Shown in pieces: positions 1 to 11,242 of a stretch of 11,242 nucleotides of DNA. Source of the DNA: an uncultured Spongiibacteraceae bacterium (GTDB lineage: Bacteria; Pseudomonadota; Gammaproteobacteria; Pseudomonadales; Dasaniaceae); NCBI GenBank assembly GCA_937969395.1, contig CALBVI010000130.1, forward strand, positions 1 to 11,242. Direction: 5' to 3'. The notes beneath the pieces are model-generated. The model did no database searches, had not been told where the DNA came from, and saw only the letters and a program-made list of their open reading frames with translations. The stretch's first letter is position 1. Every line of letters starts with the position of its first letter. The translations under genes and the position numbers were made by a program.

Positions 1-8
1 AAGGCGTT
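1..8 (+). other. Left remnant of an attC R' box interrupted by the IS
   Basis: AAGGCGTT abuts the left end of the IS and joins to the right flank (GTT)ATGAG to give AAGGCGTTATGAG. The intact attC downstream ends in the closely similar GAGGCGTTAATGA. The rest of this attC would lie to the left of the window, so the identification rests on the R' end only. Confidence 0.55.
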
Positions 9-23
9 GAGGCTGTAGAAAAA
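9..23 (+). repeat. Left terminal inverted repeat of the IS
   Basis: GAGGCTGTAGAAAAA matches the reverse complement of 1764-1778 at 14 of 15 positions. The bases immediately outside show no further match, so the repeat marks the left end of the element. Confidence 0.75.
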
Positions 24-76
24 CTAATAAAAACAGGTATTTTTTGATAAAATATCCTCATTCGGAGGAGACAATA

Positions 77-1633
77 ATGCCAAACTTTAAAAAATACGAT
101 TACAGCCAAGATGCCATGCTGGTGATCAATTTTGAGCAGCAATTACAACCTCATACTTTTGAATACACGCTGCATCATCTGATTGAAAATCACATCGATC
201 TTTCTCCTTTTTATAAACACTATAAAAATAGTTCCGGTGGTCGATCAGCTTATGACCCTGCTATTCTGCTCAAAATTATTCTGTTTGCTTATTCAAAAGG
301 TATTACTTCGAGCCGCGAGATTGAATGGCAATGCCAACAGAATATTATTTTCAAAGCGCTCTCTTGCGACTCCGGGCCGCACTTTACCAGTATTGCTAGT
401 TTCGTCAGTGGATTTCCTGAAGCGATTGAATCTGTCTTTGAGCAGGTCTTGTTAGTGTGTGATCAACAAGGGTTATTGGGGCATGAATTATTAGCCATTG
501 ATGGCTGCAAAATGTCATCGAATGCAGCGAAAGAACATTCGGGGACACTGAATGAGCTTGAACAAAAGCGCGATAAAATAAGCCGTAAGATACGCGCTTG
601 TATCAAAGAACATCGTAAACTTGATGCACGTAAACCCAGCGAGCGAGAACGAAAAAAACAGCTTGAGAAAGCGGCTAATACGTTGAAAACGCATTTTGAA
701 AAAGTTGATCAGTTCCTAAAGACGGCAGCCCCAAGGATGGGGCAGGGCAAACGGATAAAAGAAGTAAAAAGTAATATTACCGATAATGAATCGGGGAAAA
801 TGACGACCAGCAAAGGCACGATTCAAGGTTATAACGGCATTGCGGCCGTTGATAAAAAACATCAAATCATTGTTGACGCGCAAACCTTTGGTCAGAGCCA
901 AGAGCACCACACATTAAAGCCTATGCTGGAAGGGGTTGATAAACATTATCGACGAATGGGTATCCATAATGCAGTGTTGGATAGTGATATTGTGATAACC
1001 GCTGACACCGGTTTTTCTAATGATGCTAACAATGCTTATTTACGAAATGCCGGTATCAATGCCTATATACCTGATAACCAGTTTCGGTCACGGGATAAAC
1101 TTTTTTTAAAACAAAAAGAGAAATATGGAAAGCGCCACCAGGAGTTAGTTAAAGGTATTAAGACCGTTATTCCTTCAACCGAATTTAATTTTAATACGCG
1201 CAACAAAACATGTCAGTGTCCTGAGGGTAAGGACATGTGGTTGAAGAATGAAACCGTTGACGCTGGTGGCAAACGAAAGTTATTTTTTGAAGGCAAGCTA
1301 ACAGATTGTCGCCAGTGCGCTAGTAAAGATCGGTGTATGCGCAATCCCGAATCAGCGAATACACGCGAGGGCCATGGCCGCCAAGTGTCGATCACTTATA
1401 CCAACGGTCGCACAGCAACTGATTGGATGAAGCGTCGCGTGGATAGTCGACAAGGGAAAGCCATTTATGGTCATCGTATGTCTACGGTAGAACCGGTGTT
1501 TGGCAATATCGGAACCAACAAGCGGCTTAATCGTTTTTCATTACGCAGTAAAAAGAAAGTGCAATCACAGTGGCAAATGTTTTGTTTGATACACAACATT
1601 GAGAAGATAATGAATTACGGAGCAATGTTGTAA
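77..1633 (+). CDS. IS1182-family transposase
   Basis: DDE-type transposase of 518 residues, the usual size for IS1182 elements, catalysing cut-and-paste or copy movement of the surrounding element. The N-terminal third holds the DUF772-like region (SAYDPAILLKIILFAYSKGI, about residues 57-76). The catalytic acids are likely D142 in LLAIDGCKMSSNA, D310 in ADTGFSND and E472 in STVEPVFGNI. A charged, coiled-coil-like insert occupies about residues 158-210. A cysteine cluster (C379, C381, C411, C414, C420) before the final acid is typical of the family and may bind zinc. The ATG at 77 is preferred over the upstream TTG at 44 because GGAGGAG lies at 64-70, six bases ahead of it. The reading frame is intact, so the enzyme may be active. 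Confidence 0.93.
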   Translation: MPNFKKYDYSQDAMLVINFEQQLQPHTFEYTLHHLIENHIDLSPFYKHYKNSSGGRSAYDPAILLKIILFAYSKGITSSREIEWQCQQNIIFKALSCDSGPHFTSIASFVSGFPEAIESVFEQVLLVCDQQGLLGHELLAIDGCKMSSNAAKEHSGTLNELEQKRDKISRKIRACIKEHRKLDARKPSERERKKQLEKAANTLKTHFEKVDQFLKTAAPRMGQGKRIKEVKSNITDNESGKMTTSKGTIQGYNGIAAVDKKHQIIVDAQTFGQSQEHHTLKPMLEGVDKHYRRMGIHNAVLDSDIVITADTGFSNDANNAYLRNAGINAYIPDNQFRSRDKLFLKQKEKYGKRHQELVKGIKTVIPSTEFNFNTRNKTCQCPEGKDMWLKNETVDAGGKRKLFFEGKLTDCRQCASKDRCMRNPESANTREGHGRQVSITYTNGRTATDWMKRRVDSRQGKAIYGHRMSTVEPVFGNIGTNKRLNRFSLRSKKKVQSQWQMFCLIHNIEKIMNYGAML

Positions 1634-1642
1634 TACACAGCC

Positions 1643-1651
1643 TTATCCACA
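1643..1651 (+). promoter_or_regulatory. Perfect DnaA-box-like sequence inside the IS
   Basis: TTATCCACA matches the DnaA box consensus TTATNCACA exactly, nine bases after the transposase stop codon. A one-mismatch copy, TAATACACA, lies at 1631-1639 in the same orientation. IS50 is known to carry a DnaA box near one end, so a role in host control of transposition is conceivable. One match in 11 kb can also arise by chance. Confidence 0.35.
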
Positions 1652-1692
1652 GGATCAGTGAGCAATAGCGCATAAGAAATGATTATGTAAAA

Positions 1693-1722
1693 TGGATTGA
1701 GTGGTTTATGCTCAGTTATAAT
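1693..1722 (+). promoter_or_regulatory. Possible outward-reading promoter in the IS right end
   Basis: TATAAT at 1717-1722 is a perfect -10 hexamer pointing out of the element toward ORF 1795-2118. The -35 side is poor: TGGATT lies 18 bases upstream (1693-1698), and TTGAGT (1697-1702) is at only 14 bases. If active it would give a transcript starting near 1729. Confidence 0.3.
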
Positions 1723-1763
1723 TGATAGGGAAAAGGCGGCAGTAATGGCATTCGAAAAGCTTA

Positions 1764-1778
1764 TTTTTCTACAGTCTC
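1764..1778 (-). repeat. Right terminal inverted repeat of the IS
   Basis: TTTTTCTACAGTCTC is the inverted partner of 9-23 with one mismatch. It lies 131 bases after the transposase stop codon, leaving a non-coding tail inside the element that holds a DnaA-box-like site and a possible outward promoter. Confidence 0.75.
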
Positions 1779-1786
1779 GTTATGAG
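1778..1786 (+). other. Right remnant of the interrupted attC R' box with target duplication
   Basis: CGTTATGAG directly follows the IS. The CGTT (or GTT) repeats the bases at the left junction, and GTTATG fits the 3' core of VCR-type attC sites. The cassette carrying ORF 1795-2118 would begin here. Confidence 0.55.
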
Positions 1787-2221
1787 TATTAGAAATGTCA
1801 TACGTAGATAAGCTAGTCGAAGAAAAATTAGAAGGTGACGAGAGTAGAATTGCTGAGCTATTCCATGACGATACAATCTTTAGTGAACTAATCGCCAGAG
1901 GAAAAGATAGTGACTGGTATCACTTTGAGCCAAAAACATATGATGGCGAATATTTTGTAAAAGTAGGTAGCGGGTATGCATGCTATGAACAAGAGCGTGG
2001 CTCAAAATCACATTCGATGTCATTCGGTAATATCCATGAGGCAGCGATTCATTATTTTACAAGGGCGGGTTACATTAAGCCGCCGCAAGATAAAAAGTGG
2101 TGGCAGTTTTGGGCGTAAACACTCATAACAAGTCAAATCACGCGGACTTGTAAATGCTGTCACCTTTTTTGAAAAAATACTCAAAAAAACCGCCAACATT
2201 CACAATCCGGTGTTTGAGGCG
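1779..2221 (+). other. Integron gene cassette
   Basis: The unit from the interrupted R' box (cleavage expected within GTT near 1779-1780) to the same point in the next R' box (2221) holds one ORF and its attC. This is the normal organisation and length (about 440 bp) of a chromosomal-integron cassette. The left boundary depends on accepting the interrupted attC, and no integrase gene lies in the window. Confidence 0.65.
1795..2118 (+). CDS. Integron cassette protein of unknown function
   Basis: A 107-residue acidic, soluble protein with no signal peptide or membrane segment. I do not recognise the family. Visible features are an N-terminal helix rich in Glu/Lys (VDKLVEEKLEGDESRIAELF), a middle part rich in Tyr, Phe and Trp (residues 40-65), a stretch FGNIHEAAIHYFTRAGYIKPP near residues 77-97, and the tail KKWWQFWA. 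That layout (Tyr/Phe-rich beta region, then a helix ending in AGYI) recalls small immunity-type or other cassette proteins, but this is only resemblance. The gene is the sole gene of a cassette that starts at the attC remnant (about 1780) and ends in the attC at 2123-2227. There is no good ribosome binding site, and the IS lies only 16 bases upstream of the ATG, so its original upstream sequence has been displaced. Confidence 0.8.
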   Translation: MSYVDKLVEEKLEGDESRIAELFHDDTIFSELIARGKDSDWYHFEPKTYDGEYFVKVGSGYACYEQERGSKSHSMSFGNIHEAAIHYFTRAGYIKPPQDKKWWQFWA

Positions 2222-2227
2222 TTAATG
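2123..2227 (+). other. attC recombination site of VCR-like length
   Basis: The left arm starts TCATAAC (R'', 2123-2129) and the right arm ends GCGTTAATG (R' GTTAATG, 2221-2227), giving the invariant AAC and GTT. The reverse complement of the right arm aligns with the left arm: CAT-AAC, a three-base unpaired spacer (AAG against GCC), then TCAAA, CAC, CGGA, TTGT, AATG and TG. About 29 positions match, with single extra bases near 2138, 2142 and 2147. Extrahelical bases, a central spacer and a long AT-rich terminal loop (about 2165-2188) are the features that define folded attC sites. It directly follows ORF 1795-2118, as expected. Confidence 0.85.
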
Positions 2228-2506
2228 ACAAAAGCTTGGTGGTCGTATTGCTGGCGGTTCATTCTCTTAAGTATCTTGGTAATGTCTATTTTCGGTTGGA
2301 TTTTACCAATGTCGCTTAATTTTTTTGACATCAGTATTGGGCGAACACCATTATTTTTGTTGGCGCATAAAATCGTGGAGTATCTGATGTTCATACCTAT
2401 CAGTTACTTTGTTTTTAAGGCCGTAGTTCCAAAGTATTACGCAGAAAAAAGTCTTAGCGTTACAAGTGTGTTAGTCATTACTAGGGAGGCAAGGATATGC
2501 CAGTAG
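2225..2506 (+). CDS. Small membrane protein, unknown function
   Basis: A 93-residue protein with two hydrophobic segments, at about residues 8-30 (YCWRFILLSILVMSIFGWIL) and 43-66 (LFLLAHKIVEYLMFIPISYFVFKA), followed by a short charged tail. I do not recognise the family. The ATG at 2225 is chosen over the in-frame GTG at 2210 because GAGG at 2216-2219 lies five bases before it. The GTG lies inside the attC. The start codon falls within the R' box GTTAATG, so the gene begins right at the cassette junction. Its stop overlaps the start of the next gene by ten bases (2497-2506), suggesting translational coupling. The last 15 or so residues look atypical, so a frameshifted or recently altered C-terminus is possible. 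Confidence 0.65.
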   Translation: MTKAWWSYCWRFILLSILVMSIFGWILPMSLNFFDISIGRTPLFLLAHKIVEYLMFIPISYFVFKAVVPKYYAEKSLSVTSVLVITREARICQ

Positions 2507-3191: not shown

Positions 3192-3587
3192 ATGTATAAA
3201 ACGATACTTTGTGCAATAGAAGCAACTAAAGAGGGAAAGGCGGTTCTTTCAAAAGCTTCAGAATTATCAAAACTATGTAATGGAAAACTTATTGTTATTC
3301 ATGTCATACCTTACACCCTGTTGCCTAAGGATTATCAAAAAACATTAAAGGAAAATGTTTCACCAAAAATAGAAAAAATTTCAGCTGAATTTGATATCCC
3401 CAAAAAAAATCAAATCATCAAAGTTGGCAAGCCCTATGAAAATATCTGCACTCTGGCGGAAAAAAGGAAAGCTGACGTCATTATTATCGGAACACATTCT
3501 AAGAAAGGATTGAATGCGCTGCTTGGTTCAACTGCAAATGGCGTGGTTAATAATGCAAAGTGTGATGTGTCTTTAGTGAAATTATGA
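3192..3587 (+). CDS. Universal stress protein, UspA family
   Basis: A single-domain cytoplasmic Usp protein of 131 residues. It starts with the typical strand MYKTILCAIEATKEGKAVLSKA, followed by LIVIHVIP (residues 33-40) and VGKPYENICTLAEKRKADVIIIGTHSKKG (78-106). The nucleotide-binding loop is GTHS...LLGSTANGVV (G100, G112, S113, T114). Compared with the ATP-binding type (G-2x-G-9x-G-S/T) the second glycine is replaced by Ser103, so ATP binding is uncertain. Usp proteins support survival under starvation, oxygen or membrane stress. A Crp/Fnr-type regulator gene follows on the same strand after 113 bases, a pairing often seen for redox-responsive usp genes. Co-regulation is inference. Confidence 0.9.
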   Translation: MYKTILCAIEATKEGKAVLSKASELSKLCNGKLIVIHVIPYTLLPKDYQKTLKENVSPKIEKISAEFDIPKKNQIIKVGKPYENICTLAEKRKADVIIIGTHSKKGLNALLGSTANGVVNNAKCDVSLVKL

Positions 3588-3700: not shown

Positions 3701-4375
3701 GTGGAAGAAAATACACTAAAACAAATTTTTCCCTTTGTCGATAGCCTATCATCAGAGTCAGTTATCACCCTAAACCAAGAGGTAAAAAAGCTCAATTTTA
3801 AAAAAGATGATGTTATTATTCGAAAAGGCCAGAAAGTCGGGGGCGTGTATTTAGTTTGCTCAGGAAGACTACGGATTTTTTCAATGGACTCAAAGGGCGT
3901 TGAAAAGCCAATTTATAGTCTTGATGCTGGTGAGATATGTATATTTTCGATTAACTGCATTTTAAAAAAAATTCTATATCCCGCTTGGGTCACTGTCGAT
4001 TCTGCTAAGGCAGAAGTGATATCTATTCCTACGATAATTTTTCGCAACCTTTATGACAATGAACCATCGGTTCGTGACTATGTTACGGATGCCTTGTCGT
4101 TACGTATATTCGACCTTATGTCACGAATTGAGGACGTTACAGTATTTGATTTGGGCGCTCGCATTAATAGCTTTTTAGTTAGGTCTTGTAACGAGGGTGG
4201 CATTATTCAGATGAGTCATCAGGAGATTGCAAATAGGCTAGGAACTGCAAGAGAAGTTGTTTCGAGACATCTTAAACACTTAGAAAAATGTGGATATATA
4301 ACATTATCCAGAATGAGGGTCGAAGTCTTATTACCTCAAGAACTCGCAAAGATTTCATCGCACGAGGCTGTGTGA
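3701..4375 (+). CDS. Crp/Fnr-family transcriptional regulator
   Basis: A DNA-binding regulator of 224 residues. The cyclic-nucleotide-binding fold covers about residues 20-115 (KKDDVIIRKGQKVGGVYLVCSGRLRIF, DAGEICIFSINCIL) and a Crp-type winged helix covers about 150-212. The recognition helix TAREVVSRHLKHLEKCGYI contains E185, S188 and R189, the E-xx-SR pattern of FNR-type readers. FNR's N-terminal cysteine cluster is absent, so no oxygen-sensing Fe-S cluster is expected. C80 and C86 in the GEICIFSINC segment resemble a subfamily with conserved cysteines and might sense redox. The only start consistent with the frame is GTG at 3701: an in-frame stop lies at 3659 and no ATG lies between. The ribosome binding site is weak (GGTG, 3692-3695). 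The stop codon lies inside the Crp-type site that precedes the next gene. Confidence 0.9.
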   Translation: MEENTLKQIFPFVDSLSSESVITLNQEVKKLNFKKDDVIIRKGQKVGGVYLVCSGRLRIFSMDSKGVEKPIYSLDAGEICIFSINCILKKILYPAWVTVDSAKAEVISIPTIIFRNLYDNEPSVRDYVTDALSLRIFDLMSRIEDVTVFDLGARINSFLVRSCNEGGIIQMSHQEIANRLGTAREVVSRHLKHLEKCGYITLSRMRVEVLLPQELAKISSHEAV

Positions 4376-5166: not shown

Positions 5167-5184
5167 CGATTGTGTAACAGCGAG

Positions 5185-5215
5185 AAGCAGCTGGTACATA
5201 ACAGTACAGCTGCTT
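5185..5215 (+). terminator. Transcription terminator hairpin after the hydrolase gene
   Basis: AAGCAGCTG (5185-5193) and CAGCTGCTT (5207-5215) pair perfectly. With G5194 bulged out, TAC and GTA add three more pairs, leaving a six-base loop ATAACA. Only a short T-rich stretch (TTTAGTT) follows, so termination may be moderate. It begins 19 bases after the stop codon. Confidence 0.6.
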
Positions 5216-5345
5216 TAGTTGCTTAAGATAGGTTTATTTCGGTACAGGAATTTAGTTAGCGCACCACATTAACTTAAATTACGCTGGATGCGTGTATAGC
5301 GTGCTTGCTTTCAGAGGCGTTATATTTCATGGAGGATTTAAGGCA

Positions 5346-8112: not shown

Positions 8113-8158
8113 TTATGTTTAGCACAAGATGCTATATACAATCCTGTGCTAAACATAA
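8113..8158. repeat. Perfect 14-bp inverted repeat between the transglutaminase-like and DUF3187 genes
   Basis: TTATGTTTAGCACA (8113-8126) and TGTGCTAAACATAA (8145-8158) are exact complements with 18 bases between. After one mismatched pair, GAT and ATC add three more pairs. No T-tract follows on either strand, so a plain intrinsic terminator is doubtful. An RNA hairpin that limits read-through, or a binding site for a dimeric regulator, is as likely. Confidence 0.6.
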
Positions 8159-9228: not shown

Positions 9229-11242
9229 TTAAAGGCGTTCTAATGCTCGATTGATTTGAAGTTCTAATTGGTGCTTGTGACGTAAGTATTGAATCGTTTG
9301 TATCGATTGATCGACCGTATCATCAATACATCTACTTAGGTCCAGGTCAGTAATATAGCAGGGATAACGCTCGCTCGAATTTCGTTTACTCAAAATATAT
9401 TTTGCAACGTCAGTAAACAATTCATTACCCACTTCATTAACAAAAAATTCTTTTTGGTCACAGAAAATATCAAAGACTATTTCGCCAGTTATATTGCGAT
9501 GACCAATGGCTTGAACATTGAAAAAGTGATTGCTTTCAAATTCGGCAATAATAGGATGTTGGCTGACTTGTTTTGAACCTTTTTTATCGGATATTTCAAA
9601 GTACTCAATATCTCTATTCAGAAAGTCAAAATCATTAACGGCAGTCTCAGGTTGATTGACGGTTTCGCTGCTTTGCCGAAATAGGATAGATTGAATAAAT
9701 TGATCTAAGGGCGTGAGCAAGGTTTTAATGGTGTAGATCGGTGTGCTAAAAGAAAACAGCGAATTGCGTTCATCAAGCACATAGATGTCAGCTTTTTTCG
9801 CTGGCATGCTGTTGCGCTGCTGATAAAAAACTTGGATTTTGTCGGCCTGTGCGAAAGGTACGATAGCTTGCAGTGTTGTTTTTTGCATGCAGTAACGATC
9901 GAGTACAATTTTGCTGTATTTTTCTTGTGGGCTACCTAATAACTTTAGTAAGTCTATTTGTTGGTCGGCATGTTCAAAGTGCGGCTGTTGATCATTGAAT
10001 TGCAGTACATAAAATTGGCGCTGTATTTCTATGATGTAACGATTGTTGAGCGCGTTTTTCCCGCTGTAATAACATTTTCTTATGTCGTTAAACAGCTCGT
10101 TTAACCGTGATGCAATAGCACTCGCACGGGTGGGGCAAAAACATTGAATTTCTAATGTAGGTAACGGATTTTTGTTAGCGGGTAATATCATTTTCAGATA
10201 ATCACATAGGCAATGTAATAGAGCATTGGCGCCATCGTAGCGTTTGCTACTTAATTCTCCCCAGCTATTAACAACAATCTGTTCAAGATTTAACACTAAA
10301 TTTTCACGTAGCCCGCTATAACCTAAGCTATCGGTTTGAGCGCTAAGTCGTTCAATCCCTTTGCTTCGAATATGCGCTAATGGATCTACACCAACATTTA
10401 CCAATAATAAAATGTGTGTGGGGTGCATGGCTTGATTAAACTGCTCGTGTTTTTCTTCGCCTTCTTCGCTGTATTGTTTGGCTATCGGTAAATATTGTTG
10501 CAGTGAGCGAGCAGTTTTACTTAATTCTATGTCGGTAACATTATGTTCGCCTTCAATAATGGCAAGACGTGTACTGGTGTCGAGTAAGTTATTGAAGTGA
10601 CACCATGCGAGTAGCGTTGATAATTCATCAGCGCGTTTAAGAATGGCATTGCTAGTAGGTTCACGGTTGTTTGCTGCTTCGTTGCTGACTACCCATTGTG
10701 GCTCACCGTTTTGCGGATTATTGAGTTGAAAAAAAGTGAGATGTTCTTCGACCAGGTTAGGTGCAATGCCGGGGTTAATCCATTCGATTTTGCCTGCTTT
10801 ACGCTCAAATGCTGCATAGAGTTTGCGGCCAAGAATGGTCATTTCTTGTGAATTGATCAAGGCGGTGGCACGGGTTTTACGTGCAAAGTCTAAAACAAAG
10901 CGATAGCTATTGGTTAGCTCGCGTACCAATTCTTTTTGTTCGCTGATAACGCGGCCGACTTTCCATTGATTGCGCGCATCGAGACTGTAGAGATGCTGTC
11001 GTTGCCAACCCCATTCATTGGTGAGTTTTTCTAGTAATTGCCGCTGCCAAGATTTGCCGCTGGCACGGCTGGAGCGTGTGAGTGCTTTACCCACTTTGAA
11101 ATAGAAACAGCGCCTCACCAATTCTAGCCGTTCAAGTTCATTGCGGCTCAATAAATAATTTTCTAGTTTGCGATAAACCACTACGTAGGGGTCAAGCTCG
11201 TTAATATCGAGTTTTTTATCATAAATGGCGCGTTTAAATGTT
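9229..11242 (-). CDS. cyaA: Class I adenylate cyclase, C-terminal 670 residues (5' end outside window)
   Basis: The product makes cAMP from ATP, the signal used by CRP. The visible 670 residues match enterobacterial CyaA from about residue 285 onward. In E. coli CyaA the corresponding stretches are GLDPYCMMLERVTEYL and [20 protein letters not shown], and here they read ELDPYVVVYRKLENYL and ERLELVRRCFYFKVGKALTR. NEWGWQRQHLYSLDARNQWKVG, KLYAAFERKAGKIEWINPGI, LTFFQL, YVLDERNSLF and IEYFEI follow in register. The reading frame stays open to the right edge, so the GTG at 11179-11181 is not a start and the gene continues upstream. The catalytic N-terminal domain is therefore not in view. The C-terminal half is the regulatory domain. 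The divergence from E. coli is that expected for a distant gammaproteobacterium. Confidence 0.93.
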   Translation of the reverse strand, partial: TFKRAIYDKKLDINELDPYVVVYRKLENYLLSRNELERLELVRRCFYFKVGKALTRSSRASGKSWQRQLLEKLTNEWGWQRQHLYSLDARNQWKVGRVISEQKELVRELTNSYRFVLDFARKTRATALINSQEMTILGRKLYAAFERKAGKIEWINPGIAPNLVEEHLTFFQLNNPQNGEPQWVVSNEAANNREPTSNAILKRADELSTLLAWCHFNNLLDTSTRLAIIEGEHNVTDIELSKTARSLQQYLPIAKQYSEEGEEKHEQFNQAMHPTHILLLVNVGVDPLAHIRSKGIERLSAQTDSLGYSGLRENLVLNLEQIVVNSWGELSSKRYDGANALLHCLCDYLKMILPANKNPLPTLEIQCFCPTRASAIASRLNELFNDIRKCYYSGKNALNNRYIIEIQRQFYVLQFNDQQPHFEHADQQIDLLKLLGSPQEKYSKIVLDRYCMQKTTLQAIVPFAQADKIQVFYQQRNSMPAKKADIYVLDERNSLFSFSTPIYTIKTLLTPLDQFIQSILFRQSSETVNQPETAVNDFDFLNRDIEYFEISDKKGSKQVSQHPIIAEFESNHFFNVQAIGHRNITGEIVFDIFCDQKEFFVNEVGNELFTDVAKYILSKRNSSERYPCYITDLDLSRCIDDTVDQSIQTIQYLRHKHQLELQINRALERL

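Follow-up and report, generated by a model that had tools for sequence, protein, structure and literature searches.

Insertion sequences (ISs) that target the attC recombination sites of integrons are known from the IS1111-attC group of the IS110/IS1111 family, represented by ISKpn4, ISPst6 and ISPa21, which insert at one end of attC (PMC11187229, PMC11616780, PMC11089894). These elements encode a DEDD transposase, employ a seekRNA as guide and carry sub-terminal repeats (PMC11187229), and it is the IS1111 group that the accessible text of the papers on attC-targeting ISs names. Group IIC introns such as S.ma.I2 are likewise mobile elements found at attC, but represent retroelements and not insertion sequences (PMC7923331). 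Homing of an element with a single DDE transposase to a recombination site has been described for the ISAjo2 group of the IS1202 family, which is found 5 bp beside pdif/dif sites of the XerC/D system, in one orientation and with short duplications (PMC10132070). Within the IS1182 family, IS1272 replaces inverted repeats and, in the accessible part of the report, does so without duplication of the target (PMC5678879).

Bacteria use integron arrays to keep genes in store and to rearrange them. In the window, by which we denote the whole stretch of 11,242 nucleotides analysed here from an uncultured Spongiibacteraceae bacterium, an IS1182-type element is located within the R′ core of an attC site. 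Based on the insertion points of its relatives, we consider it probable that this clade of IS1182-type elements inserts at the attC R′ core (CGTT) in one orientation, and that the transposase chooses the insertion point by itself. Like the IS1111-attC group, the clade inserts in attC (78 of 102 left flanks). In contrast to that group, its transposase is of the DDE type and belongs to another superfamily, its repeats are located at the very ends of the element, and (C)GTT is repeated on both sides. To our knowledge, no guide RNA is known for the present clade. With the ISAjo2 group it shares the single DDE transposase, the one orientation and the short duplication, whereas it belongs to another IS family and inserts in the core of its site (PMC10132070). 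Unlike IS1272, it uses attC sites (PMC5678879), and the loss of target described for IS1272 was not encountered, since the attC arm and the start of the cassette are both kept and (C)GTT is repeated.

The initial annotation knew of no earlier description of attC targeting by IS1182-type elements. In line with this, no such report was among the matches listed in our literature search, while subscription papers and ISfinder pages may hold an earlier notice.

Results and Discussion

The element in the window

The features of the window that are relevant to the insertion, all on the plus strand, are as follows.

1 to 8, plus strand: 3′ terminus of the attC that the IS splits, AAGGCGTT; its last bases, 5/6 to 8, are the first (C)GTT target core (junction sequence and matches on contig C223)
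9 to 1778, plus strand: IS1182-type insertion sequence of 1770 bp (terminal repeats, transposase and relatives with the same ends)
9 to 23, plus strand: left terminal inverted repeat, GAGGCTGTAGAAAAA, pairing with 1764 to 1778
77 to 1633, plus strand: DDE transposase of 518 aa, the sole long open reading frame of the IS (Pfam and NCBIfam matches)
1764 to 1778, plus strand: right terminal inverted repeat, TTTTTCTACAGTCTC, pairing with 9 to 23
1779 to 1781, plus strand: second copy of the target core, GTT (junction sequence)
1779 to 1786, plus strand: 5′ end of the cassette, GTTATGAG (complement of the R″ of the same cassette)
1780 to 2221, plus strand: gene cassette 3′ of the IS, from G^TT to G^TT (boundaries placed by the general crossover rule)
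1795 to 2118, plus strand: open reading frame of the cassette, 107 aa, without a Pfam or NCBIfam match
2122 to 2229, plus strand: intact attC of the downstream cassette, with R″ CTCATAAC at 2122 to 2129 and the R′ core GGCGTT at 2218 to 2223

The architecture of the element, with terminal inverted repeats of 15 bp each that are 93% complementary and a single open reading frame, corresponds to that of the IS1182 family, as do its size and its terminal repeats of the GAGGCTGT/CAGGCTGT kind. The match of its transposase to the NCBIfam IS1182 model NF033551 covers 497 residues (E 9e-78) but, at 262.3 bits, falls slightly short of the model cut-off of 270; close relatives such as P0030, P0031 and P0038 are annotated at source as 'IS1182 family transposase'. 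Pfam assigns DUF772 and DDE_Tnp_1_6 to the protein, without a match of the DEDD type. The residues D142, D310 and E472 are invariant in 25 of 25 aligned relatives and would constitute the DDE catalytic triad. The predicted structure (mean pLDDT 71.5) matches best, though weakly, the Tn5 transposase (E 3.1e-3, TM 0.33); a PDB sequence search with the transposase returned no relative. Scanning the window at Rfam gathering scores yielded no match. Downstream of the transposase stop codon, at positions 1645 to 1653, the window contains TTATCCACA, which resembles a DnaA box. That the 3′ part of the element holds a conserved box of this kind was rejected, since only 5 of 54 copies display the pattern used.

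The split attC site

Integron cassettes are exchanged by a crossover at G^TT. At the right junction of the IS, the sequence GTTATGAG (1779 to 1786) is the exact 8-base reverse complement of CTCATAAC (2122 to 2129), the R″ of the attC that belongs to the same cassette. Since a cassette start complements its own R″, the IS is bordered on its right by a cassette boundary, and the site that it splits is an attC R′ core. The arrangement thus reads AAGGCGTT, IS (9 to 1778), GTTATGAG, which bears out the initial annotation of an IS1182-type element within an attC R′ core. (C)GTT is found on both sides of the IS; duplications of 3 bp and of 4 bp look alike here, since a C is present in each target that was read.

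The first base of the window is also the first base of its contig (C130), and the 5′ arm of the split attC would lie to its left, off the contig. The source genome is 64% complete and comprises 495 contigs, among which the IS was assembled once, and a pattern search of this assembly revealed no contig ending in the missing arm of the split attC. However, the genome encodes two integron integrases above the curated cut-off and comprises contigs with several attC-like pattern matches; on contig C223, four of seven plus-strand matches end in AAGGCGTTA, the same ending as that of the split site at positions 1 to 8.

Insertion points of relatives

A scan of genome contigs yielded 64 loci with relatives of the element, which together with the window represent a first set of 65 loci, from which 8 without a readable left end and 11 without a readable right end were dropped. 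Relatives were detected in 24 of 369 genomes of a class sample (E 1e-30), in 27 of 244 genomes of the source order and 7 of 40 genomes of a second order (both E 1e-60), and in one of two genomes of a third order; scanning of viral contigs yielded none.

Merging of duplicates reduced 131 left ends to 114 and 109 right ends to 93 unique ones. CGTT directly precedes the IS at 113 of 113 unique left ends, the 114th having only three flanking bases, and the sequence reads GCGTT in 87, ACGTT in 21, TCGTT in 3 and CCGTT in 2 cases. Correspondingly, GTT directly follows the IS at 91 of 93 unique right ends, with ATT (L023) and AAC (L098) as exceptions; one round of end location favoured ends preceded by GTT, but a flank-blind round on the first 65 loci gave the same succession of CGTT, IS and GTT. 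In the enlarged set, 13 loci were located by GTT-initial motifs after reading by eye. Copies with the CGTT target encode transposases whose identity to that of the window ranges from 78%, in a relative from Gilvimarinus, down to about 35–45%.

The copies share one direction relative to the R′ core. One degenerate copy (L098) is opposite: it has no recognisable left end and borders on its right on an attC 3′ arm in reverse complement, which may reflect insertion in the inverted direction or a remnant left by rearrangement. The target preference that the initial annotation had suspected is hence strong and oriented.

attC context of the copies

To identify attC sites at the insertion points, position models of the 5′ and 3′ arms were built from 51 intact attC sites downstream of copies, two of which (L004 and L015) are themselves occupied and at least one 5′ arm of which (L017) was entered twice. 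Arms were counted in left flanks of at least 100 nt, shorter ones being excluded, with a threshold score of at least 8 for the 5′ arm (shuffles reach 7.1 at the 95th and 10.6 at the 99th percentile), while p-values for the 3′ arm in the enlarged set were computed against 2662 other CGTT[AG] sites. A strict pairing finder for attC arms, which recovered 31 of 49 left flanks versus 316 of 4900 shuffles, failed to recover some evident attC sites, and these models were used in its place.

Among the first 48 left flanks, the 5′ arm exceeded the 99th percentile of shuffles in 38 and the 3′ arm reached p<0.01 in 40; both arms were found in 35 and either arm in 43. In the enlarged set, the 5′ arm was present in 78 of 102 left flanks, 77 of which also contain the 3′ arm (p<0.05). 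Copies at unrelated sequences, the outcome that would have spoken against the initial annotation, were thus not the result, although about 14 of the other 24 flanks are not recognisable as attC. The targeted core is always R′ (CGTT) and never R″ (TTGTT). On the other side of the IS, 29 of 52 right flanks contain the complement of the first seven cassette bases, as the R″ of that cassette, at a distance of up to 1.5 kb, with 3.3 expected from other GTT[AG] sites. In 46 of 52, the longest open reading frame of the initial 900 nt is co-directional.

Complete or near-complete genomes with several copies were inspected one by one. In Microbulbifer sp. YPW16, attC holds each of the six copies found, and in genome G476 it holds four of five. 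In genome G610, four of six copies exceed the 5′ arm threshold and the remaining two have strong 3′ arms. In the complete genome G242, two of four copies are in attC and the other two at stray sites; attI as the site of these stray copies was rejected, because L105 and L108 are far from the integrases found. An integron integrase above the cut-off was present in five of the six complete or near-complete host genomes checked.

Cassette arrays tolerate insertions and are long in these hosts, so that the pattern could in principle reflect near-random insertion, with only those copies persisting that landed in neutral arrays. We regard this account as scarcely credible: neutrality fixes neither one base position nor an orientation, cassettes hold much other non-coding sequence, the copies in ordinary genes described below share the core together with a CCnnT motif, and CGTT at 113 of 113 left ends contradicts it.

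Tandem copies and further occupied attC sites also occur. At L107 (genome G242, around position 3386) and in the right flank of L047, a second copy or remnant is separated from the first by GTT only. At L004 (2900 to 3010) and L015 (3100 to 3240), a further attC downstream is occupied by diverged relatives, CGTT being followed by GAGTCTGTGGAAAAAC and GAGGTTGTAGAAAAAC, respectively.

Insertions outside attC

In 24 of the 102 left flanks, the 5′ arm scored below 8. About ten of these were judged by eye to be attC (L161, L132, L140, L017, L143, L148, L081, L079, L094 and L073). Four are located in ordinary genes and display the same IS ends and the repeated (C)GTT. L027 interrupts a UPF0060/YnfA gene and L040 a lipocalin gene, with halves on both sides that are contiguous in the respective Pfam profiles (1–48 and 50–106; 48–105 and 110–145); L136 interrupts an EAL gene, again with halves on both sides (profile positions 12–36 and 67–162); and L089 lies in a citrate-type transporter gene seen on the left side only. 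The best two 3′ arm scores of these gene sites correspond to p=0.003 and 0.004, the other two to 0.04 and 0.11. Among the remaining flanks, L056 adjoins an open frame at its beginning, the end of a gene that by eye resembles an IS3-type transposase is located upstream of L032, the flank of L022 is short, and the second end of L072 is a tandem copy.

The gene insertions bear on the question of whether the integron integrase places the IS, the element being effectively a cassette joined at G^TT. The junction does coincide with the crossover point, and integrases above the cut-off are encoded in five of six host genomes checked as well as in that of the window. However, the element does not terminate in an own attC, the copies in ordinary genes are identical in their ends and in the repeated (C)GTT, ends of this kind are also found in relatives that use other targets, and C precedes GTT at 113 of 113 left ends versus 48 of 56 intact attC sites. 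Placement by the integrase is therefore very improbable.

Finally, six stray sites (L030, L071, L090, L091, L092 and L105) are not attC, lack a C at −17 and display little beyond ACGTT. As they are neither attC nor carry this C, CGTT alone can suffice for insertion. These sites, together with the purine that precedes CGTT in 99 of 104 targets, would agree with a short core such as RCGTTR being all that is required, attC being targeted because it holds this core. Yet an estimate from base composition predicts such a core thousands of times per genome, far above the number of attC sites, whereas most copies are in attC, and the targets are enriched for bases on the L′ side even when compared with untargeted attC. 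We thus consider a short core as the sole determinant improbable.

Distant relatives with other targets

A tree of 56 transposases separates the 46 sequences of the group from 10 outgroup sequences by a branch with support of 100/99; the position of its root is uncertain because the outgroup branches are long. Two of the 11 outgroup loci (L112 and L119) gave no interpretable ends, and none of the nine with readable ends, as read by eye, displays CGTT/GTT. Instead, they show the duplications TTAAT, TCACT, CATG, CAAG, GGTC, GACC and CTAG, in one case ACGATCGT on both sides, and in one case no clear duplication. Palindromes or flanking inverted repeats were encountered at L111, L113, L115, L117 and L120, in two cases terminator-like. 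On Pseudomonas plasmids, the distant IS1182 copies L111 and L113 lie in the loop of terminator-like hairpins, the loop bases being duplicated.

Together with IS1272, these palindrome-using outgroups point to a probable origin of attC homing within a family that prefers hairpins or palindromes.

Linear and folded attC as possible targets

The following bases recur before CGTT in the 104 targets for which 40 nt or more are available: GCC (−18 to −16), T (−13) and purines (−6 and −5). When compared with 51 intact, untargeted attC sites in the same loci, the targets more often contain T at −13 (93 of 104 versus 33 of 51; Fisher p 0.0004) and T at −12 (35 of 104 versus 3 of 51; p 0.0001), p-values that, like all others given here, are too small because the attC sites and the IS copies are related. 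All four gene sites carry CC at −17/−16 and T at −13 (CCnnT...CGTT), which we found at 47 of 2975 (1.6%) control CGTT[AG] sites, the motif having been read from the same copy set and the gene sites numbering only four.

The gene sites are without an attC 5′ arm, and their base pattern resembles an L′-R′ half of attC that happens to occur within a gene. Since they mimic only this linear half, the transposase likely reads linear double-stranded DNA at L′-R′ rather than a folded hairpin. The six stray sites, all without C at −17, speak against this reading. Conversely, the transposase might recognise the folded attC hairpin and thereby extend the taste for stem-loops of other members of the IS1182 family. 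IS1272 replaces inverted repeats (PMC5678879), five of nine readable outgroup copies are located in palindromes or between inverted repeats, and attC folds. However, the insertions in genes mimic the attC 3′ half without a 5′ arm, and only R′ is used, never R″, though both pair in the hairpin. Hairpin recognition hence appears unlikely to us. A test for a stem that ends at the insertion point was set aside, because it did not separate attC from shuffles (0 of 51 attC sites reached p<0.05).

For recognition of the linear half-site, we propose the following course of events. The transposase would recognise the L′-R′ half of the double-stranded attC over about 18 bp, GCCnnT-n6-RRCGTT, and would cut and join at CGTT with a target staggered by 3 or 4 bp. 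The hairpin route would not be used, the folded single-stranded attC serving as substrate of the integron integrase instead. The IS and the following cassette would still be excisable, and the element could thus spread as an integron passenger in addition to its own transposition. As a tentative overall account, which we hold to be possible but do not favour beyond that, a DDE transposase may have evolved, separately from IS1111, to read a linear half-attC; the ends of the IS may rebuild the R′ box, and each insertion may make the next cassette a carrier with which the integrase mobilises the IS, the element being both transposon and integron passenger across the Gammaproteobacteria.

If this is true, a second and mechanistically different IS family homes to attC, and attC homing arose more than once. 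Outward or inward sequences of the IS would be placed at cassette starts, and the clade would provide a natural system in which to study the acquisition of target specificity by a one-protein DDE transposase. For annotation, an IS between an attC and a cassette would be expected here and not due to chance, and could be used to find attC sites.

Fate of the downstream cassette

The consensus sequence of the R′ box is GTTRRRY. At the left junction, the upstream attC is kept through the G^TT crossover point, and the end of the IS adds GAGG, so that the resulting box, GTTGAGG, agrees with the consensus at 6 of 7 positions; this IS end is GAGG in 42 of 57 copies of the first set. The initial annotation had expected the insertion to block excision of the downstream cassette. 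The retention of attC up to G^TT and the closeness of GTTGAGG to an R′ box do not support this view. Given the kept GTT and the IS end GAGG, the IS and the next cassette would remain excisable as one unit, and judging from these bases they could be excised together. An all-against-all comparison of right flanks, in which an IS and a cassette that move as a unit would recur, revealed two short matches of 76–90 bases only.

Other features of the window

Beyond the cassette, the window contains a second stretch (5171 to 5325), ending in AGAGGCGTTATAT, that resembles the 3′ end of an attC. A perfectly abutting 23-bp inverted repeat (87%) at 8113 to 8158 is possibly a terminator. A gene for a class I adenylate cyclase on the minus strand (9229 to 11241) is cut by the end of the contig, and the same window harbours a gene for a Crp-family regulator at 3701 to 4375.
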